Positions 28,649 to 34,906 of a stretch of DNA of 64,000 bases are shown here, piece after piece. Source of the DNA: Mesotoga prima MesG1.Ag.4.2 (GTDB lineage Bacteria; Thermotogota; Thermotogae; Petrotogales; Kosmotogaceae); the NCBI RefSeq assembly GCF_000147715.2, contig NC_017934.1, positions 1,984,001 through 2,048,000 of the forward strand, written 5' to 3'. The notes beneath the pieces were generated by a model. It did not search any database, was not told where the DNA came from, and saw only the letters and a list, made by a program, of their open reading frames with translations. The position numbers were made by a program, and so were the translations under genes. Position 1 is the first letter of the stretch, and every line of letters begins with the position of its first letter.

Positions 28649-29926
28649 ATGAATCCAAAAGATATCAGAAAGATGCTTCAGGCTATTGAGGAGGAGATTT
28701 TCTCAAGAGCCGAAATGAATGTGAAGGATATGCTGGAATCTCCATCGGCATACGTAAGGGCAAGGGCAATAAAATCAGCAGTGGAACGCGATATGAAAAT
28801 CGAGAATATCGAGTCTTTTCTTGATGATCCTTCGCCGGATGTCAGAAAAAACGCGGTTTCTTCGATGGCGAAATTCGGTGAAGATCGAGATTCTATACTG
28901 AAGGCTCTTGATGACCCGTCAGACCTCGTTAGAAGCGCAACGGCGAAGGAACTCGTCGAGTTCGGTTATGAGGACGAGGAGTTGGCGAGGAAAATTGCTG
29001 CAGATCCTTCAAAAAAGGTTAGGAAGACCTTTGTTATCTCCCTTGCGGAAGCCGGAGAGAGCGAACTCTTACAGGAGTTCAACGGAGATCCAAGCACCGA
29101 CGTTCGAAGGATATTGTCTGCCTACAATGGCGAACTGCAGCTAGATGAAGAGGTGCTCTCTTCGCTTTCGGGAAAATTCCAGAAACTTGCTATTCATTCA
29201 AGGCTCGGTAAACTGGATTCGACTTCTTCAGAAAAGCTTTTGGGTCTTATAAAGGATTTTCGCATTTCAAAGACAAAGCAGATTCTAGTTGAATCTCTAG
29301 AACCATTCCCGGAGGAGGTCTCGGTTCCGGCGCTGAGAAAGCTAGTCGAGTCCGAGGATTCAAACGTAGCAATAACAGCACTGAAGACTTACAGAAAAAT
29401 CAAGGGATACGATGTTTCGTTGTTGCAGGCCGCAGAGAGGTTCATGGATTCAGATGATGAAGAGATGAGATTCGTCGGGGCGCAGTACGTCAAAGGTCTA
29501 CTTGAACCATCCGCGGTTGATATTCTTCGAGAAGGACTTAATGATCCCTCAGACAGGGTTAGGGCGATATGTATTGAAGCTTTGGCCAACCTAATGGATA
29601 ATTCTATCTCCGATGTCATTGATGAATCATTGAGATCAACTTCGTCGAGACTGAAGAAGGCTTCACTCAGAGCAGTAAAGAAACTCAAAACATTGGATGT
29701 GGGTGATCACGTTTCAAGAATTCTTTCCAACAGGAAGGAAGAGCTTCAGACGAGGATTCTTGCTTCTTCCGTGACGGGTCTTCTCAAACTGGACGGTTTG
29801 CTCCCTTGTCTCGAAGAGATAGTGGTAGATGCTTCCAGTGAGAGTCGCCTAAGACTATCGTCTGCCAGAGCAATGGCAAGAATAAACCCCTCACGTTTGG
29901 CCGATCTCTTTGGCTTTACAGTATAA
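28649..29926 (+). CDS. HEAT-repeat protein
   Basis: The 425-residue protein is made of about a dozen helical repeats of roughly 30 residues, seen in lines such as SFLDDPSPDVRKNAVSSMAK, ALDDPSDLVRSATAKELVEF and GLNDPSDRVRAICIEALANL. These D-P-S-x-x-V-R turns are typical of HEAT/PBS-lyase repeats, which serve as binding scaffolds. The ATG at 28649 has GAAGGTGGA upstream. It is co-transcribed with gltX and the pseudopilin gene and overlaps the convergent ecfT gene by 11 bases. No signal peptide is present. Confidence 0.82.
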   Translation: MNPKDIRKMLQAIEEEIFSRAEMNVKDMLESPSAYVRARAIKSAVERDMKIENIESFLDDPSPDVRKNAVSSMAKFGEDRDSILKALDDPSDLVRSATAKELVEFGYEDEELARKIAADPSKKVRKTFVISLAEAGESELLQEFNGDPSTDVRRILSAYNGELQLDEEVLSSLSGKFQKLAIHSRLGKLDSTSSEKLLGLIKDFRISKTKQILVESLEPFPEEVSVPALRKLVESEDSNVAITALKTYRKIKGYDVSLLQAAERFMDSDDEEMRFVGAQYVKGLLEPSAVDILREGLNDPSDRVRAICIEALANLMDNSISDVIDESLRSTSSRLKKASLRAVKKLKTLDVGDHVSRILSNRKEELQTRILASSVTGLLKLDGLLPCLEEIVVDASSESRLRLSSARAMARINPSRLADLFGFTV

Positions 29927-30701
29927 CAACCGCTGTAATAGAAACCGCCGTCGAAATCAAGATAATCGAGTCATTAATCGACCAGCTCATTTTGTCGAGG
30001 CTTCGCAATGTATGGCCGGGCTCGTATCCCATTATTTCCAGAGCGGACGCGGTGTCCTGGGCCTTCTTTAGCGAGGTCGTAATCACGGGTATCACCACTG
30101 AGAGAGAGTTTCTTACTCTCTTGAAAAAACTTCCGCCATTGAATTCCACACCTCTAGCCTTCTGGGCCATAATTATTCGATTCGTCTGAAGCGAGAGAAG
30201 AGGAATGAAAGTGAGGGTTAGTGAAAGTGCCATTCCGAGTTCAGAAACCCTCTTAGTTTTCATCGGTAGCTTTCCGACGATTGCTTCAATGGAGGAGGAG
30301 ATCTCCATGGGGGTTGTTGTATATGATAATGTAATGCTGAAGAAGACTGCAAAAACCATCCTAACAGTCAATAAGGTGGCGTTCAAAAGGCCCTCTTCTG
30401 TTATCCTCAGTATCTTCATATCCAGCAGGACTTTTCCGTGCGTAAAGAAGAGCTGGAAGATGACAATTAAGAGTAGAAGAAACTTGATTGTCCAGAGGGT
30501 TTTGATGTACTCCCCCAGCGGAACCTTTGAAAGCAAGAGAAGCGAAATCCAAAAGGAAAAAAGGATCAGAGAATCAACAATGCCGCTCAAGAACAAAGAT
30601 CCCACCGCAAGCGCCACAAAAGAAATCGTCTTGACAACGGGAGACAGTTTATGAATGATTGAGTCGGCAGGGAAGAAGCGACCTAAGGGAATCTCTACCA
30701 A
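29916..30701 (-). CDS. ecfT: Energy-coupling factor transporter transmembrane protein EcfT
   Basis: The 261-residue membrane protein has about five to six spans and the EcfT coupling motif AQKARGVEF in a cytoplasmic helix near residue 190, with a second similar motif near the C-terminus (SALEIMGY). EcfT links the ATPases EcfA/A' to substrate-specific S subunits for vitamin uptake. Neither EcfA nor an S subunit is nearby, so this is the shared group II type. TTG at 30701 overlaps the queD stop and follows GGGAGAGAG; the longer frame to 30746 would lie inside queD. Confidence 0.82.
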   Translation of the reverse strand: MVEIPLGRFFPADSIIHKLSPVVKTISFVALAVGSLFLSGIVDSLILFSFWISLLLLSKVPLGEYIKTLWTIKFLLLLIVIFQLFFTHGKVLLDMKILRITEEGLLNATLLTVRMVFAVFFSITLSYTTTPMEISSSIEAIVGKLPMKTKRVSELGMALSLTLTFIPLLSLQTNRIIMAQKARGVEFNGGSFFKRVRNSLSVVIPVITTSLKKAQDTASALEIMGYEPGHTLRSLDKMSWSINDSIILISTAVSITAVVIL

Positions 30702-31063
30702 CCATCTCTCTCCCTGTAACGAACAAAGCTGGTGGGAGTTTCCCATAAGGCTACTTCATAGAGCTCGAACGAATTCCCGCGAATCTTGCCTGCGAGTTTA
30801 TTGAAAATCCACTCTGCTATGTTCTCTGCAGTTGGTTGCGATAGCACATCATTTATATAAGAGTGATCCAGCACACTCAGGACTTCGTCTCTGACAATTT
30901 CTTTCATTTTCAGAAAGTCGATTACCATGTCTTCCTCTTGCTTCTCCCCGGCAACGGTAACTTGAAGTTTATAAGTGTGACCGTGCAGCTTCTCGCACTT
31001 ACCGTGATACATGGTGAGGTTATGTGCTGCGTCAAAAGTGAACTCCTTCGTTATGAAGAACAT
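30695..31063 (-). CDS. queD: 6-carboxy-5,6,7,8-tetrahydropterin synthase QueD
   Basis: The 122-residue enzyme makes 6-carboxytetrahydropterin from dihydroneopterin triphosphate on the way to 7-deazaguanine modifications such as queuosine. The zinc ligands are visible: His in FDAAHNL, and the pair in KLHGHTY. The catalytic Cys in GKCEKLHGH and the Asp-His pair in VLDHSYIN are present. I chose ATG at 31063 behind GGAGGGTGA; the frame runs another 32 codons upstream without conserved sequence. It is coupled to ecfT. Confidence 0.9.
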   Translation of the reverse strand: MFFITKEFTFDAAHNLTMYHGKCEKLHGHTYKLQVTVAGEKQEEDMVIDFLKMKEIVRDEVLSVLDHSYINDVLSQPTAENIAEWIFNKLAGKIRGNSFELYEVALWETPTSFVRYRERDGW

Positions 31064-31387
31064 TTCTCTGTTCACCCTCCTTCCTCGCAAAACATCTACC
31101 CTTGAGAACCAAATATCGTTTTCTGTGTGACGATACTTCGAATTTCCTGTCGAAATCATTCAGTGATCACAAGTATAACTCATCCCAAATGGGTATTCCA
31201 GCTACTCCAGTCCGGCCCGTAAGATGCTCCACGATCTAGTATAGTATCCCTGCTTTCTTATCGGACCCTGAAGGAGGAAACCTGCTCTTCTAACCAGAAA
31301 AAATGTGGAGACCATCTCAGCCTGGAATTAGAGACAAAACGCAGAACAAGAATAAAGTTAGACTGCAATAGAATTCTAGGACTAGGT
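31064..31387. other. Intergenic region upstream of queD
   Basis: No gene is seen in these 324 bases. A possible minus-strand promoter for queD has TATACT near 31170. CCCAAATGGG near 31184 is a small palindrome beside it. I do not see the features of a preQ1 riboswitch. Confidence 0.4.
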
Positions 31388-31416
31388 TTGACATATATCT
31401 AACCATATGTTATGAT
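31388..31416 (+). promoter_or_regulatory. Consensus promoter of the plus-strand micro-gene
   Basis: TTGACA (31388-31393), a 17-base spacer and TATGAT (31411-31416). The spacer carries ATCTAAC, and ACATAT/ATATGT at 31391-31410 forms a dyad overlapping the -35 end and spacer, a plausible repressor site. The same hexamers, spacing and ATCTAAC recur at the minus-strand micro-gene. Confidence 0.82.
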
Positions 31417-31457
31417 CTCAGTGTAAGATATATATCGAACCGGTGGAGGAATTGATA

Positions 31458-31559
31458 ATGTCAAATTGCACTACAAAATCGATGAGAGAAGTTACGGAAC
31501 AGATAGAAAAGGCACGAGTAGAAATCTTGAAGTCCAGACCCTTCCTTACTTTTCAGTAG
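31458..31559 (+). CDS. Micro-protein of 33 residues, paralogue A
   Basis: An ATG at 31458 follows GGTGGAGGAATTGATA and opens a 33-codon frame ending TAG. The peptide is hydrophilic and helical in its first two thirds (REVTEQIEKAR) and ends in a short Pro/aromatic tail (SRPFLTFQ). It has one Cys at position 4, no membrane span and no signal peptide. A consensus promoter precedes and a strong terminator follows, so the whole unit is about 220 bases. The minus-strand unit at 31623-31891 encodes a similar peptide: both share an I-E/D-KAR motif at the same distance from an aromatic C-terminus. I do not recognise a family. It could be a signalling peptide, a peptide-product precursor, a toxin or a regulator. 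Confidence 0.65.
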   Translation: MSNCTTKSMREVTEQIEKARVEILKSRPFLTFQ

Positions 31560-31579: not shown

Positions 31580-31609
31580 AAAGAGAGAGCCTGAAGGTTC
31601 TCTCTTTTT
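31580..31609 (+). terminator. Terminator of micro-gene A
   Basis: AAAGAGAGAGCC (31580-31591) pairs with GGTTCTCTCTTT over 12 positions (one G-U) around TGAA, followed by a run of T. It lies 20 bases after the stop codon. Confidence 0.85.
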
Positions 31610-31622
31610 GAATGAAAGAAAC

Positions 31623-31648
31623 AAAAAAGGGTCTCTACCGAGAGACCC
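31623..31648 (-). terminator. Terminator of micro-gene B
   Basis: Read on the minus strand GGGTCTCT-CGGT-AGAGACCC is a perfect 8-base stem followed by six T. It lies 70 bases after the stop of the minus-strand micro-gene and 14 bases from the facing terminator, so the two units are insulated from each other. Confidence 0.88.
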
Positions 31649-31718
31649 GAAGTCATCTTTCTTTCCGTGGGGGAAAAGGGGGGTTGCTTGTATGTCGCGA
31701 TTCTACTGGTTTATTTCT

Positions 31719-31817
31719 TCAGAGTGCAAAAAAGTTTCCGTATCTTATAGAAGCCGATCTGGCTTTATCGATTTCCTTCTGGACATCTTTTCCGATTTTC
31801 AAAGATCCCTTCTTCAT
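31719..31817 (-). CDS. Micro-protein of 32 residues, paralogue B
   Basis: An ATG at 31817 follows AAAGGAGGAGTCGAT and opens a 32-codon frame ending TGA at 31719-31721. The peptide begins with a basic stretch (KKGSLKIGKD), continues as VQKEIDKAR and ends in an aromatic tail (RYGNFFAL). It resembles the 33-residue peptide on the other strand in the EI-D/E-KAR core and the Phe-containing end. It has its own consensus promoter and terminator. No family is recognised and no modification or export gene is adjacent. Confidence 0.65.
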   Translation of the reverse strand: MKKGSLKIGKDVQKEIDKARSASIRYGNFFAL

Positions 31818-31862
31818 ATCGACTCCTCCTTTTCGTCTGTTCGATTCATCTCTTACATTTTC

Positions 31863-31891
31863 ATCATATCACTACGTTAGATAGTTGTCAA
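31863..31891 (-). promoter_or_regulatory. Consensus promoter of the minus-strand micro-gene
   Basis: On the minus strand TTGACA (31886-31891), a 17-base spacer and TATGAT (31863-31868). ATCTAAC again sits in the spacer three bases after the -35. Downstream, TGTAAGA (31851-31857) and ATCGAAC (31839-31845) match leader motifs of the plus-strand unit at 31422-31428 and 31434-31440. Confidence 0.82.
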
Positions 31892-32118
31892 ACTATTATT
31901 GTTAACGCACAATAAACTTCTAACAATATATCGATTAAGCAGATTTACGATCTTGCACTTTCAAATGGATTTGATTCGACACCGAAGAATACTTGTACAT
32001 GTTCCGCATTTTAAGTACGTTATAGAGTTGCGTTGTTGATGAATTTCCCTGGTTCAAGGTTTCTCGAACCTTATCCATGCTATAATTCAATACAAGTCGA
32101 ACTTGAGAGGTGTATTCC

Positions 32119-33186
32119 TTGAATATAATCCCGGGATACGTTGAACTCGTAGAGATTTTGATGGCATGTGGTCTTGCTGACAGGAAGAGTTATTTCGACG
32201 CAGTTTCACATGATCTTGGATTCGATTTCGAACCGGGTCAAGAGCTAGGGGCATTTCTTCTTAAGATCAGAGAGAATGAGAACTGGTCGATAAAAGTTGT
32301 CGCTGACGTATTTTCGGAAATAAAGGACAGCGTCATCTTCTTTTGCGACTTTCCCGAAAGGCCGGGGGGGGAGATTCTCCTCGAGGACTCAATCGAAAGC
32401 CTTGCGAATAACTTCGAAGAGAAATCTAGATGTGTAGTAAACAGCATTCTTTCGAACAATCTTAATTTCTCTCAAGAGGAAGTAGATAAGATACTTGAAG
32501 GGGATCTAAGCATTGTGCCCGAAGCTGTAAACAAGGCCGAAGATCTCTCTGAAAACACGACATGGTTCATTACTCAGCTGATAAACTTTCCCAGGCAGTC
32601 GAAAGAGATCCTGCTCTTTGCTCTTAACGAAATGAAGAAGTACTACGAAGAATCCGGTCTGAGAAAAAAGAATCGCGATCAGATAGCCGAAAAACTAAAG
32701 CTCTTCGAAAATGATCAGTATAATCAAATTGCCGAGGGATTTCTTGATTTTTATGGCATTAAGGCAAGAGAAGACTTGCCGCTTCATCTCTTGTTTCAGA
32801 ATACACTGAAGTATTCAGGGCTTAAGTTTGCAAGCTCCTGCAATACCCAGCTGATAGTATTCAGCGAGCACTTCAAGCAGATTGAAGAGATTATGAATCC
32901 ATCGGTTACGGACAATACTCTCAGACTGTTTCTCAGAAATCTAGCCGATCAAACCAAGATGCAGATTTTGAAGTCGATATCCGAGGAACCAAAATACGTG
33001 GATGAGCTTGCAAAGCTCGTAGGGCTATCCAAAGCGACAGTATCCTACCACCTTTCGACTCTGTCCGAACTTGCCCTGGTTAAGAGCCGAAAAGATCACA
33101 GAAGAGTGTACTTCTCTTTGAATAAAGAGCGTCTCGAAAAAATTCTGAAAGGACTTGAGACGCTATACGATGAAGGTGAGAACTAA
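32119..33186 (+). CDS. Large regulator with C-terminal ArsR-type winged helix, copy 1
   Basis: The 355-residue protein has an N-terminal 265-residue domain that I do not recognise and a C-terminal winged helix (LRNLADQTKMQILKSI, YVDELAKLVGLSKATVSYHL, then the wing SRKDHRRVYFSL), as in ArsR-family repressors. The Cys metal site of classical ArsR is absent, so the N-terminal part is probably the sensor. TTG at 32119 is chosen because GAGAGGTG lies six bases upstream and because MNIIPGY then aligns with MEIITGY of the next gene. A TATAAT stands at 32081-32086 with a GGTTC/GAACC dyad just upstream (32051-32070). It neighbours the micro-gene pair. Confidence 0.72.
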   Translation: MNIIPGYVELVEILMACGLADRKSYFDAVSHDLGFDFEPGQELGAFLLKIRENENWSIKVVADVFSEIKDSVIFFCDFPERPGGEILLEDSIESLANNFEEKSRCVVNSILSNNLNFSQEEVDKILEGDLSIVPEAVNKAEDLSENTTWFITQLINFPRQSKEILLFALNEMKKYYEESGLRKKNRDQIAEKLKLFENDQYNQIAEGFLDFYGIKAREDLPLHLLFQNTLKYSGLKFASSCNTQLIVFSEHFKQIEEIMNPSVTDNTLRLFLRNLADQTKMQILKSISEEPKYVDELAKLVGLSKATVSYHLSTLSELALVKSRKDHRRVYFSLNKERLEKILKGLETLYDEGEN

Positions 33187-34253
33187 TGGAAATAATCACC
33201 GGCTATTTCGAAATATACGATCTGACAATGGCCATTCAGTTTTCGCTGAACACTGGTCCTGTTGAGAAGGTACTCAAGACGCTCGGGGTTGATTATGAAC
33301 CCTCTTCTCAGCTCTTGGAATTCAGGGAAACACTTCTTAAGGATGAAGAGTGGTCAACGAGGATGTATATAACCTTTATGAACGAACTGGGTGTTATGGC
33401 TCCCATCCTCTTCCCAATAAGGCAGAAGCTTCAAGACGGTATGCAGGTGACAATTGAGGAAAGCCTTAATGTAACGGAAGAGGGAATCGAGTTGATAAGA
33501 GACCGTTTCATCCAGGTATTTGCAGATAGAAGGCTCAAGATTTCCCATGATGAGCTGAATCGTATGATAAGCGAGGAACCGCAGAAGGTCTCAAAGGCCA
33601 TAGAGGCAATAGGCGGTGTAAGCCCGGATACTGTCTGGTTTGTGCACCAGCTACTCTTCTTTCCGAAGACGGCGATGGATTTCCTTTCCTCCAAGACGAT
33701 GAAAATCTTAAACTATTATGAAGGAAGCGGTTTAAGAGACCTCAACACTCGGCTCGTAAAAGGATACATAGAGAGTAGTTCGTCACAGAAGATCAAAGAC
33801 GCCTTCTCGAACTATCTCGACTATTACGATATCGTACTCGACGAGACGAAACCTGTATACATAACTCTTCAAAACTCGGTACCTCATACAAACTCTGGCC
33901 TAATGACATATCCGACCTTTCATCTTCTGATAATGGGTCTTGAAGAGGTTACCGAAGATTTCTCGGGCAGAATCCCGCAGGAAGTCAGGCTACGGAGTCT
34001 TCTTAAGGTGCTTTCCGACGAGACCAGATTCAAGATCCTGAAGAGACTCAGCAAGGAACCGGCTTTACAGAAGGACCTCGTTGAATTCACAGGCCTCGCC
34101 AAGTCTACCATTTCCTATCATATGGGACTTCTGTTCAAGTCATCGTTGATCGACGTTGATCCATTCAGCAGCATAATCTGTGTGAGAAAAGAGACTGTAC
34201 GGAGGGCAGCAGCCGATATCAGAAATCTTTTGAATTTGAGGGATATGAAATGA
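33186..34253 (+). CDS. Large regulator with C-terminal ArsR-type winged helix, copy 2
   Basis: This 355-residue paralogue of the preceding gene has the same length and plan: unknown N-terminal domain, then LKVLSDETRFKILKRLSKEP and LAKSTISYHMGLLFKSSLI as the recognition helix region. The two proteins are clearly homologous throughout (MEIITGYFEIYDL against MNIIPGYVELVEI; WFVHQLLFFPK against WFITQLINFPR), with considerable divergence, so they may form a heterodimer or sense different ligands. The wing differs from copy 1, suggesting different DNA targets. Its ATG overlaps the previous stop by one base. Confidence 0.7.
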   Translation: MEIITGYFEIYDLTMAIQFSLNTGPVEKVLKTLGVDYEPSSQLLEFRETLLKDEEWSTRMYITFMNELGVMAPILFPIRQKLQDGMQVTIEESLNVTEEGIELIRDRFIQVFADRRLKISHDELNRMISEEPQKVSKAIEAIGGVSPDTVWFVHQLLFFPKTAMDFLSSKTMKILNYYEGSGLRDLNTRLVKGYIESSSSQKIKDAFSNYLDYYDIVLDETKPVYITLQNSVPHTNSGLMTYPTFHLLIMGLEEVTEDFSGRIPQEVRLRSLLKVLSDETRFKILKRLSKEPALQKDLVEFTGLAKSTISYHMGLLFKSSLIDVDPFSSIICVRKETVRRAAADIRNLLNLRDMK

Positions 34254-34906
34254 TTAGAGCAGTAATATTCGATATGGATGGCGTGATAATCGATTCCGAA
34301 AAGCTCTATAGAAGGGCCTGTACCGAACTGGTTTCGGAGCTTGGTGGAAAGATAAGTGATGAGCTCTTCGAGAAGCAGATGGGTCTTAAAATGTCTCAAA
34401 CTCAGAGAGTAATTGTTCAGACTGCCGGTCTGGATATGGAGCCTGAGGAATTTGGCAGAAGGTACATGGAAAGGTATCTCGAACTTGCCAGAGAGACCGT
34501 GGTTCCAAATATCGGATTGATTGAGCTTCTTGATTTTCTTTATGGAAAGGTAGAACTGGCGATTGCATCGTCGACGGAGAAGTCCGCTGTTGAAGAGTTG
34601 ATGAAGAAAATAAACGTGCTCGAATACTTCTCGGTAATCGTCGGGGGAGATGAAGTTAGGGAATCTAAGCCATCGCCGATGATCTATCAAAGAGCTTCGC
34701 GGCTTTTGGGAATTGCCCCGGAGGATTGCATTGTTATTGAAGACTCGCCAAACGGCATTAGAAGCGGTTTCATGGCCGGAATGGAGGTTCTTGGGGTAAG
34801 GCACGAGGAGAACATAGACCTTGATTTGTCGCTTTCAAAACATGTGTTCGATAATCTGAACGGGGTTAGAGAGTATTTGGAAAAGAGGTTCGATAGTTTA
34901 ATTTAA
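34250..34906 (+). CDS. HAD-superfamily hydrolase (beta-phosphoglucomutase-like)
   Basis: The 218-residue enzyme has all four HAD motifs: nucleophile DMDGVIID near residue 8, the Thr/Ser motif in IASSTEK near 106, Lys in ESKPSPMIY near 142, and the acidic pair IEDSPNGI near 165. The helical cap and length match subfamily IA, which includes sugar-phosphate phosphatases and beta-phosphoglucomutase. The substrate is undetermined. Its start overlaps the second regulator in an ATGA junction, so it is in the same operon and could act on the ligand those regulators sense. Confidence 0.85.
   Translation: MIRAVIFDMDGVIIDSEKLYRRACTELVSELGGKISDELFEKQMGLKMSQTQRVIVQTAGLDMEPEEFGRRYMERYLELARETVVPNIGLIELLDFLYGKVELAIASSTEKSAVEELMKKINVLEYFSVIVGGDEVRESKPSPMIYQRASRLLGIAPEDCIVIEDSPNGIRSGFMAGMEVLGVRHEENIDLDLSLSKHVFDNLNGVREYLEKRFDSLI

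Follow-up and report, generated by a model that had tools for sequence, protein, structure and literature searches.

Two large ArsR-type regulators, encoded in tandem beside a pair of micro-genes in Mesotoga prima, raise a double question: what do they control, and what do they sense? The regulators (R1 and R2) lie in a 64,000-nucleotide stretch of DNA, hereafter the window, from a genome of 2.98 Mb and two contigs (G000 in our set); the comparison set comprised 103 Thermotogota genomes. The original prediction cast R1 and R2 as candidate peptide or metabolite receptors, possibly with one peptide for each regulator. We propose that, at this locus, a private, tandem pair of ArsR-type regulators bearing an orphan sensor domain accompanies a candidate dual-function small RNA. 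A common operator and a conserved C-rich 3' UTR, both absent from the original prediction, point to an RNA output besides the peptide. A literature search on Mesotoga and Kosmotoga small RNAs or peptides found nothing on this locus. The features of the module are collected in Table 1.

Table 1. Features of the regulator–micro-gene module, in window positions.
Feature	Position	Strand	Sequence, signals and basis
Putative operator, A promoter	31386-31403	+	GTTTGACATATATCTAAC; exact GTTNGA-N6-TCNAAC; contains -35 TTGACA (31388-31393); -10 TATGAT 31411-31416
Second operator-like site of A	31423-31440	+	GTAAGATATATATCGAAC, 1 mismatch; 37 bp downstream, in 5' UTR
Micro-gene A	31458-31559	+	33 codons, MSNCTTKSMREVTEQIEKARVEILKSRPFLTFQ; SD GGAGG at 31445-31449; orthologues, dN/dS
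A intrinsic terminator	31580-31610	+	Hairpin and T-run in sequence
B intrinsic terminator	31623-31648	-	GGGTCTC...GAGACCC-TTTTTT in sequence
C-rich element (C-box)	31664-31683	-	CCCCCCTTTTCCCCCACGGA; in B 3' UTR
Micro-gene B	31719-31817	-	32 codons, MKKGSLKIGKDVQKEIDKARSASIRYGNFFAL; SD AGGAGG at 31825-31830; orthologues, dN/dS
Second operator-like site of B	31839-31856	-	1 mismatch; at inferred transcription start
Putative operator, B promoter	31876-31893	-	GTTTGACAACTATCTAAC; contains -35 TTGACA (31886-31891); -10 TATGAT 31863-31868
Putative operator, R1 promoter	32052-32069	+	GTTCAAGGTTTCTCGAAC, 1 mismatch; -10 TATAAT 32081-32086
Second, weaker operator-like site, R1 promoter	32085-32102	+	ATTCAATACAAGTCGAAC, 2 mismatches; 33 bp downstream
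R1	32119-33186	+	355 aa; TTG start after GAGAGGTG; orphan N-terminal domain (1-265) and C-terminal ArsR-type winged helix
R2	33186-34253	+	355 aa; R1 paralogue, same architecture, shorter wing; start overlaps R1 stop
HAD-family hydrolase	34250-34906	+	ATGA overlap with R2

Family searches bear out the predicted architecture of the regulators: two 355-residue paralogues (24–25% identical to each other), each with an orphan N-terminus of ~265 residues followed by a C-terminal, ArsR-type winged helix. ArsR-type HTH models are the sole family matches of either protein, and cover residues ~271–344 (the C-terminal ~75 residues). The Pfam models HTH_5 and HTH_20 score above cut-off in both; the NCBIfam ArsR HTH_metalloreg model does so in R1 and falls below it in R2, and the NCBIfam SdpR match is limited to the HTH. 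The metal-binding cysteine is indeed missing—the alignment contains no CxC-type motif in the helix of R1 or R2—and, at 355 aa, neither protein has the single, ~100-residue ArsR/SmtB form that often carries such a cysteine. The predicted ATGA coupling between R2 and a HAD-family hydrolase is also found. Given this overlap and that between the R1 stop and the R2 start, a stoichiometric R1–R2 complex or heteromer is plausible. R1 is the faster-evolving partner, with about 24–30% identity between genera, while R2 retains about 46–59% in its N-terminal domain. A contig search reaching close relatives only returned one match, a Kosmotogaceae MAG whose R1 is 95% identical; no R1 or R2 relatives were found in viral contigs, and a plasmid search matched short ArsR proteins in their HTH only.

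The N-terminal domain was predicted to be a probable ligand sensor, with a profile search as the suggested check. No family was recognized: residues 1–265 have no match in Pfam, NCBIfam, PHROG, PADLOC or the PDB sequence families; 18 orthologous N-terminal domains scanned singly against Pfam show no consistent family and no TPR; and a profile of the domain finds nothing credible in the PDB. Two known sensor domains were set aside. DUF5937 (PF19361) gave no R1 or R2 match at E ≤ 1 in the 103 genomes, an hhalign comparison with five other long ArsR proteins (two with weak DUF5937 hits) reached a probability of only 17.6, and matches to the CARF-bearing regulators, such as Csa3, cover the HTH alone. 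Structure prediction gave no reliable model: AlphaFold results had a pLDDT of 33 from a single sequence and of 50 from a four-row alignment (the input being the proteins of the window plus one relative), the latter with a helical, low-confidence first half, and a Foldseek search with the AlphaFold model found nothing in the PDB. TM1316 of T. maritima may be a relative. Other long ArsR proteins (346–385 aa) occur in Thermotogota at L085:7331-8371, L086:3345-4469, L130 and L131, with no micro-gene nearby; some are weakly similar to DUF5937, and the L085 protein adjoins an MFS-like transporter. A C-terminal fragment of an R2-like protein lies at a contig end in a genome from another Thermotogota family (G055; L087:9822-10334), without assembled upstream DNA.

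The two micro-genes are, judged by their sequences, real coding genes under selection. Each has a near-consensus promoter, a strong Shine-Dalgarno (SD) sequence and an intrinsic terminator, and it is the strong SDs, together with dN well below dS for orthologues among Mesotoga species (for B, window versus G029, dS 1.67 and dN 0.11), that argue for selected coding sequence. The peptide follows the pattern I-x-x-x-[IV]-[DE]-[KD]-x-[KR], with a basic residue next and a hydrophobic C-terminus, often G-x-F-x-x-[LF]; it is charged and amphipathic, with neither an obvious signal sequence nor a transmembrane stretch. Copy A is a Mesotoga duplicate that has the peptide and an operator-like site and lacks the C-rich tail of B. 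It has decayed in two genomes, in both of which R1 and R2 are intact. The relics (L074:4172-4430 in G029 and L076:6355-6613 in G027) keep the operator-like palindrome and the 5' UTR motif in front of a broken frame, which in G029 contains an in-frame stop (EQLEE*RARVETPE).

Do the regulators and the micro-genes belong together, as first predicted from their proximity? The R1–R2 pair occurs in 14 of the 103 genomes, a sample from one bacterial family (Kosmotogaceae) and few independent lineages: 9 of 10 genomes of the window's genus (G000, G023–G029, G031), and G018–G022 from three further genera. The contig of G025 ends upstream of R1; in all 13 genomes with an assembled flank, a divergent micro-gene of 32–35 codons (B) lies upstream of R1 and starts within about 130–300 bp of it. 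In the window this distance is about 300 bp, correcting the 230 bases given at first, and B diverges from R1. A profile of the micro-gene peptide found 19 strong matches in the 103 genomes, all at regulator loci (the next best has an E value of about 1e-3), and there was no convincing copy elsewhere in these genomes. Since that profile was trained on the same loci that it recovers, a second was built from Mesotoga sequences alone; among the 1,519 frames of the five non-Mesotoga loci, its top five matches are the five divergent micro-genes (E values 6.6e-9, 1.3e-4, 9.6e-4, 0.032 and 0.22). The association is thus without exception among testable genomes, and only very distant long ArsR proteins are without a micro-gene. 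The refuting pattern named with the original prediction did not arise for R1–R2 orthologues.

Gene-neighbourhood comparison separates this association from mere inertia. All the genomes are from one family, and neighbouring genes can long stay together, so that micro-gene and regulators might be unrelated genes linked by chance. We consider this highly improbable: the unit stays while its outer neighbours differ between genera, which makes the linkage more than slow rearrangement; the micro-genes and R1 have an operator motif in common (see below); and G030, G032 and G033, which lack R1–R2, also lack the micro-gene. The module persists as a unit within a family of both heat-loving and moderate bacteria. 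Among the outer genes of the window are, by their translations, an upstream QueD/6-pyruvoyl-tetrahydropterin-synthase-like gene and a CbiQ-like transporter gene (29916-31159, minus strand), not conserved beside the module in other genera.

The pairing of two peptides with two regulators does not survive the comparison. One peptide per regulator is contradicted by the five genomes outside Mesotoga (G018–G022), in which both regulators accompany a single peptide gene, and by the A relics in G027 and G029. A looser form of peptide sensing can still be considered, in which the micro-peptide, or a C-terminal fragment of it, binds the N-terminal domain of R1/R2 and alters DNA binding (as a pheromone or in intracellular feedback), with the C-rich tail serving mRNA stability only. 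The strict co-occurrence, the arrangement of a small, divergent ORF next to a regulator of 355 aa (which resembles Rgg/SHP), a hydrophobic C-terminus conserved in its spacing from the peptide end and the low-confidence helical model of the N-terminal half all speak for it. Yet neither TPR nor another peptide-binding family was detected, the peptide is charged and amphipathic with no obvious signal sequence, the neighbourhood comparison revealed no conserved exporter or importer beside the micro-gene, and two regulators accompany one peptide outside Mesotoga. On balance this explanation seems rather doubtful. The variant in which the orphan domains sense their own peptide and the C-rich tail is nonetheless a regulatory RNA—a peptide-responsive ArsR switch outside the Firmicutes, unlike RRNPP systems—strikes us as unlikely.

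The link between regulators and micro-genes extends to their promoters, which have in common an 18-bp palindrome, GTTNGA-N6-TCNAAC. Three observations define it. Firstly, the palindrome contains the -35 TTGAC at the B promoters of every species (13/13, with one mismatch in G019), and copy A bears the motif as well. Secondly, in Mesotoga the two micro-genes each repeat the site exactly 37 bp further downstream, around the point where transcription is inferred to begin. Thirdly, related sites occur at the R1 promoter in 13/13 loci; these are imperfect, with one or two mismatches (usually one), and lie 33 bp apart in most Mesotoga. Over all loci, the module regions (8.9 kb) contain 51 sites at ≤1 mismatch, and the remaining 183.5 kb contain 5. 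Within the window, five of six sites cluster within 684 bp; dinucleotide shuffles give an expectation of 2.7 for the entire 64 kb. Since the -35 consensus coincides with the left arm, an operator is independently supported only by the copies at the R1 promoter, the second sites and the right arm of the palindrome. Genome-wide, exact matches outside the locus are near the level of a reversed-pattern control and show no wide recurrence among species. The other exact matches in the window's genome were set aside as background: two are inside coding genes, and one, at L194:1520-1537 (G000:C1:951719-951736), lies about 20 bp before a histidine-ammonia-lyase-like gene, probably by chance, and was discounted because relatives have no recurrent match.

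The simplest reading of this conserved linkage is that R1 and R2 bind the palindromes and regulate only their own module. Overlap of the palindrome with the -35 box and the transcription start suggests that this local control is most likely repression, and the related sites at the R1 promoter imply that the pair would also regulate itself.

A strong promoter under apparently tight local control is also what might be expected of a toxin–antitoxin-like arrangement, with a toxic or membrane-active micro-peptide kept off by R1/R2, by its own RNA tail, or by both. The peptide is short, basic and amphipathic with a hydrophobic end, and A has decayed twice. But it matches no known toxin family and has no transmembrane stretch, B is under strong purifying selection across Mesotoga, and the module sits on the chromosome and is fixed in almost all Mesotoga; we judge such a role to be decidedly improbable.

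More serious is a metabolite or redox switch, in which the signal for R1/R2 is a small molecule and both peptide and RNA act purely as downstream effectors, in the way that RoxS does under Rex. Here, the layout of a sensor domain with a C-terminal ArsR-type helix is that of Csa3 and other ligand-sensing regulators (by matches confined to the HTH), no peptide-binding family was detected, and the coupled HAD hydrolase is present in three of the four genera (Mesotoga and those of G018 and G019). Against this, the hydrolase is absent after R2 in G020–G022, no ligand-binding family was recognized, and no other recurrent operator targets were found in the genome. This explanation is a real possibility, if somewhat short of probable.

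The remaining evidence concerns the RNA itself. B has a 3' UTR (31623-31718, minus strand) with GCAACCCCCCTTTTCCCCCACGGA and the terminator, recognizable in 13/13 loci. Its C-rich element, of the form CCCCCC-TTTT-CCCCC-ACGGA, lies upstream of the terminator and is 81–100% identical to that of the window in every other genome, making it, across four genera, the most conserved segment, above the reading frame and the flanks (by global alignment of short segments, which inflates baseline identities). A covariance model recovers all 13 C-rich tails at E ≤ 5.1e-15, from the same loci on which it was trained. An Rfam search gave chance-level matches only, and an RNAalifold consensus for the 3' UTR was dropped in favour of a terminator-only structure after it paired the C-box implausibly. 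C-rich boxes are a recognized signature of small RNAs that pair with SD sequences (PMC3861533). For the window's B transcript, the minimum-energy structure and the centroid agree in pairing the C-box with the ribosome-binding site of B itself (GAAAAGG/CCUUUUC). However, the whole transcript is no more stably folded than shuffles (z 0.70), and the pairing is species-dependent when set against random windows (3/300 as good in G020, 144/300 in G026); self-pairing is thus a possibility and nothing firmer. The C-box has no long antisense target in its own genome except itself. As copy A is without it, the peptide and RNA functions look separable. Apparently separate C-rich small-RNA candidates occur elsewhere: GACCCCCCTATCCCCCC, within a GAGTGC...GCACTC stem that precedes a terminator, at L186:3805-3893 (G019; no micro-gene was seen in the flank) and L191:1764-1853 (G021), and a looser candidate, ATCCCCCTATCCCCCCC plus terminator, at L190:1734-1824 (G038).

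Taken together, we consider it fairly probable that R1–R2 form an autoregulated local switch, most likely a repressor, of a candidate dual-function RNA that combines peptide and C-rich regulatory RNA. In the proposed mechanism, R1 and R2 would be the products of a single, translationally coupled operon, probably acting as a complex. They would serve as a dedicated transcription switch on the palindrome over the -35 box of the micro-gene promoters (in Mesotoga, also on the second site around the transcription start), most likely keeping a strong, sigma-70-type promoter repressed until their N-terminal domains receive a signal, and adjusting their own synthesis through the sites at the R1 promoter. 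The main output would be transcript B (~235 nt), which is predicted (i) to be translated into the 32-residue amphipathic peptide, and (ii) to pair, through a 3' UTR with C-box and terminator, with G-rich SD sequences, possibly its own. Published K. olearia libraries were prepared with selection against RNA <200 nt (PMC5674127). If true, the system would be unusually well defined, since about 3 kb take in the operator, promoter, peptide, RNA element and both regulators, and it would offer an initial clue to what an orphan sensor domain does when joined to an ArsR-type helix. It is also an example of how conserved operators and neighbourhoods can reveal overlooked micro-genes.

How does the module compare with known systems? 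Like the RRNPP systems (Rgg/SHP, PlcR/PapR), it places a regulator of 250–500 aa beside a tiny peptide gene. The criteria for that family include a receptor of 250–500 aa with TPR repeats (PMC10075063). An adjacent small gene of 32–35 aa is present in 13/13 loci and the regulator length fits; however, none of the 18 N-terminal domains contains a TPR, and the DNA-binding domain is ArsR-type and C-terminal rather than HTH_3-type and N-terminal as in those RRNPP receptors that are transcription factors. The module further differs in having no evident secretion signal (RRNPP propeptides leave the cell by Sec or PptAB), two regulators per peptide and an RNA tail. In the position of the winged helix, C-terminal to a large sensor domain, R1 and R2 resemble the long ArsR forms (DUF5937-ArsR and Csa3, a CARF-ArsR protein), but their N-terminal domain matches neither, and they are tandem paralogues with a private operator. 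In the SdpR/SdpI/SdpC system, SdpR is of ArsR type, represses its own expression and is linked to a small peptide; it is short and acts through the membrane protein SdpI, whereas no SdpI-like membrane protein is conserved here.

On the RNA side, RoxS/RsaE of the Firmicutes resembles B in its C-rich regions and in the repression by a sensor regulator at the start site that is predicted for B: Rex represses RoxS by binding immediately downstream of the RoxS start (PMC5419742). Unlike B, RoxS is treated as a regulatory RNA rather than a peptide gene in that work (PMC5419742), and Rex is not an ArsR protein. The Rfam search showed no sequence relation between B and RoxS/RsaE.

Most dual-function small RNAs described so far come from Proteobacteria and Firmicutes. 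B resembles this class (RNAIII/delta-hemolysin, SR1/SR1P, SgrS/SgrT, VcdRP/VcdP), whose members are likewise short transcripts with a selected small ORF and a conserved non-coding part. In B the predicted ORF has dN well below dS and a conserved SD in 13/13 loci, and the conserved part outside it is the C-rich 3' UTR, again in 13/13. RNAIII, too, carries C-rich boxes (PMC3861533), and the 32-residue B peptide is close in size to the 29-aa protein ascribed to VcdRP in the account of PMC8672173. B differs from all of these in sequence, peptide and phylum, in lacking an Rfam match, in that its RNA activity is a prediction, and in being tied to a private, tandem regulator pair. A dual-function RNA in the Thermotogota with such a conserved pair of its own would, if true, extend the class.
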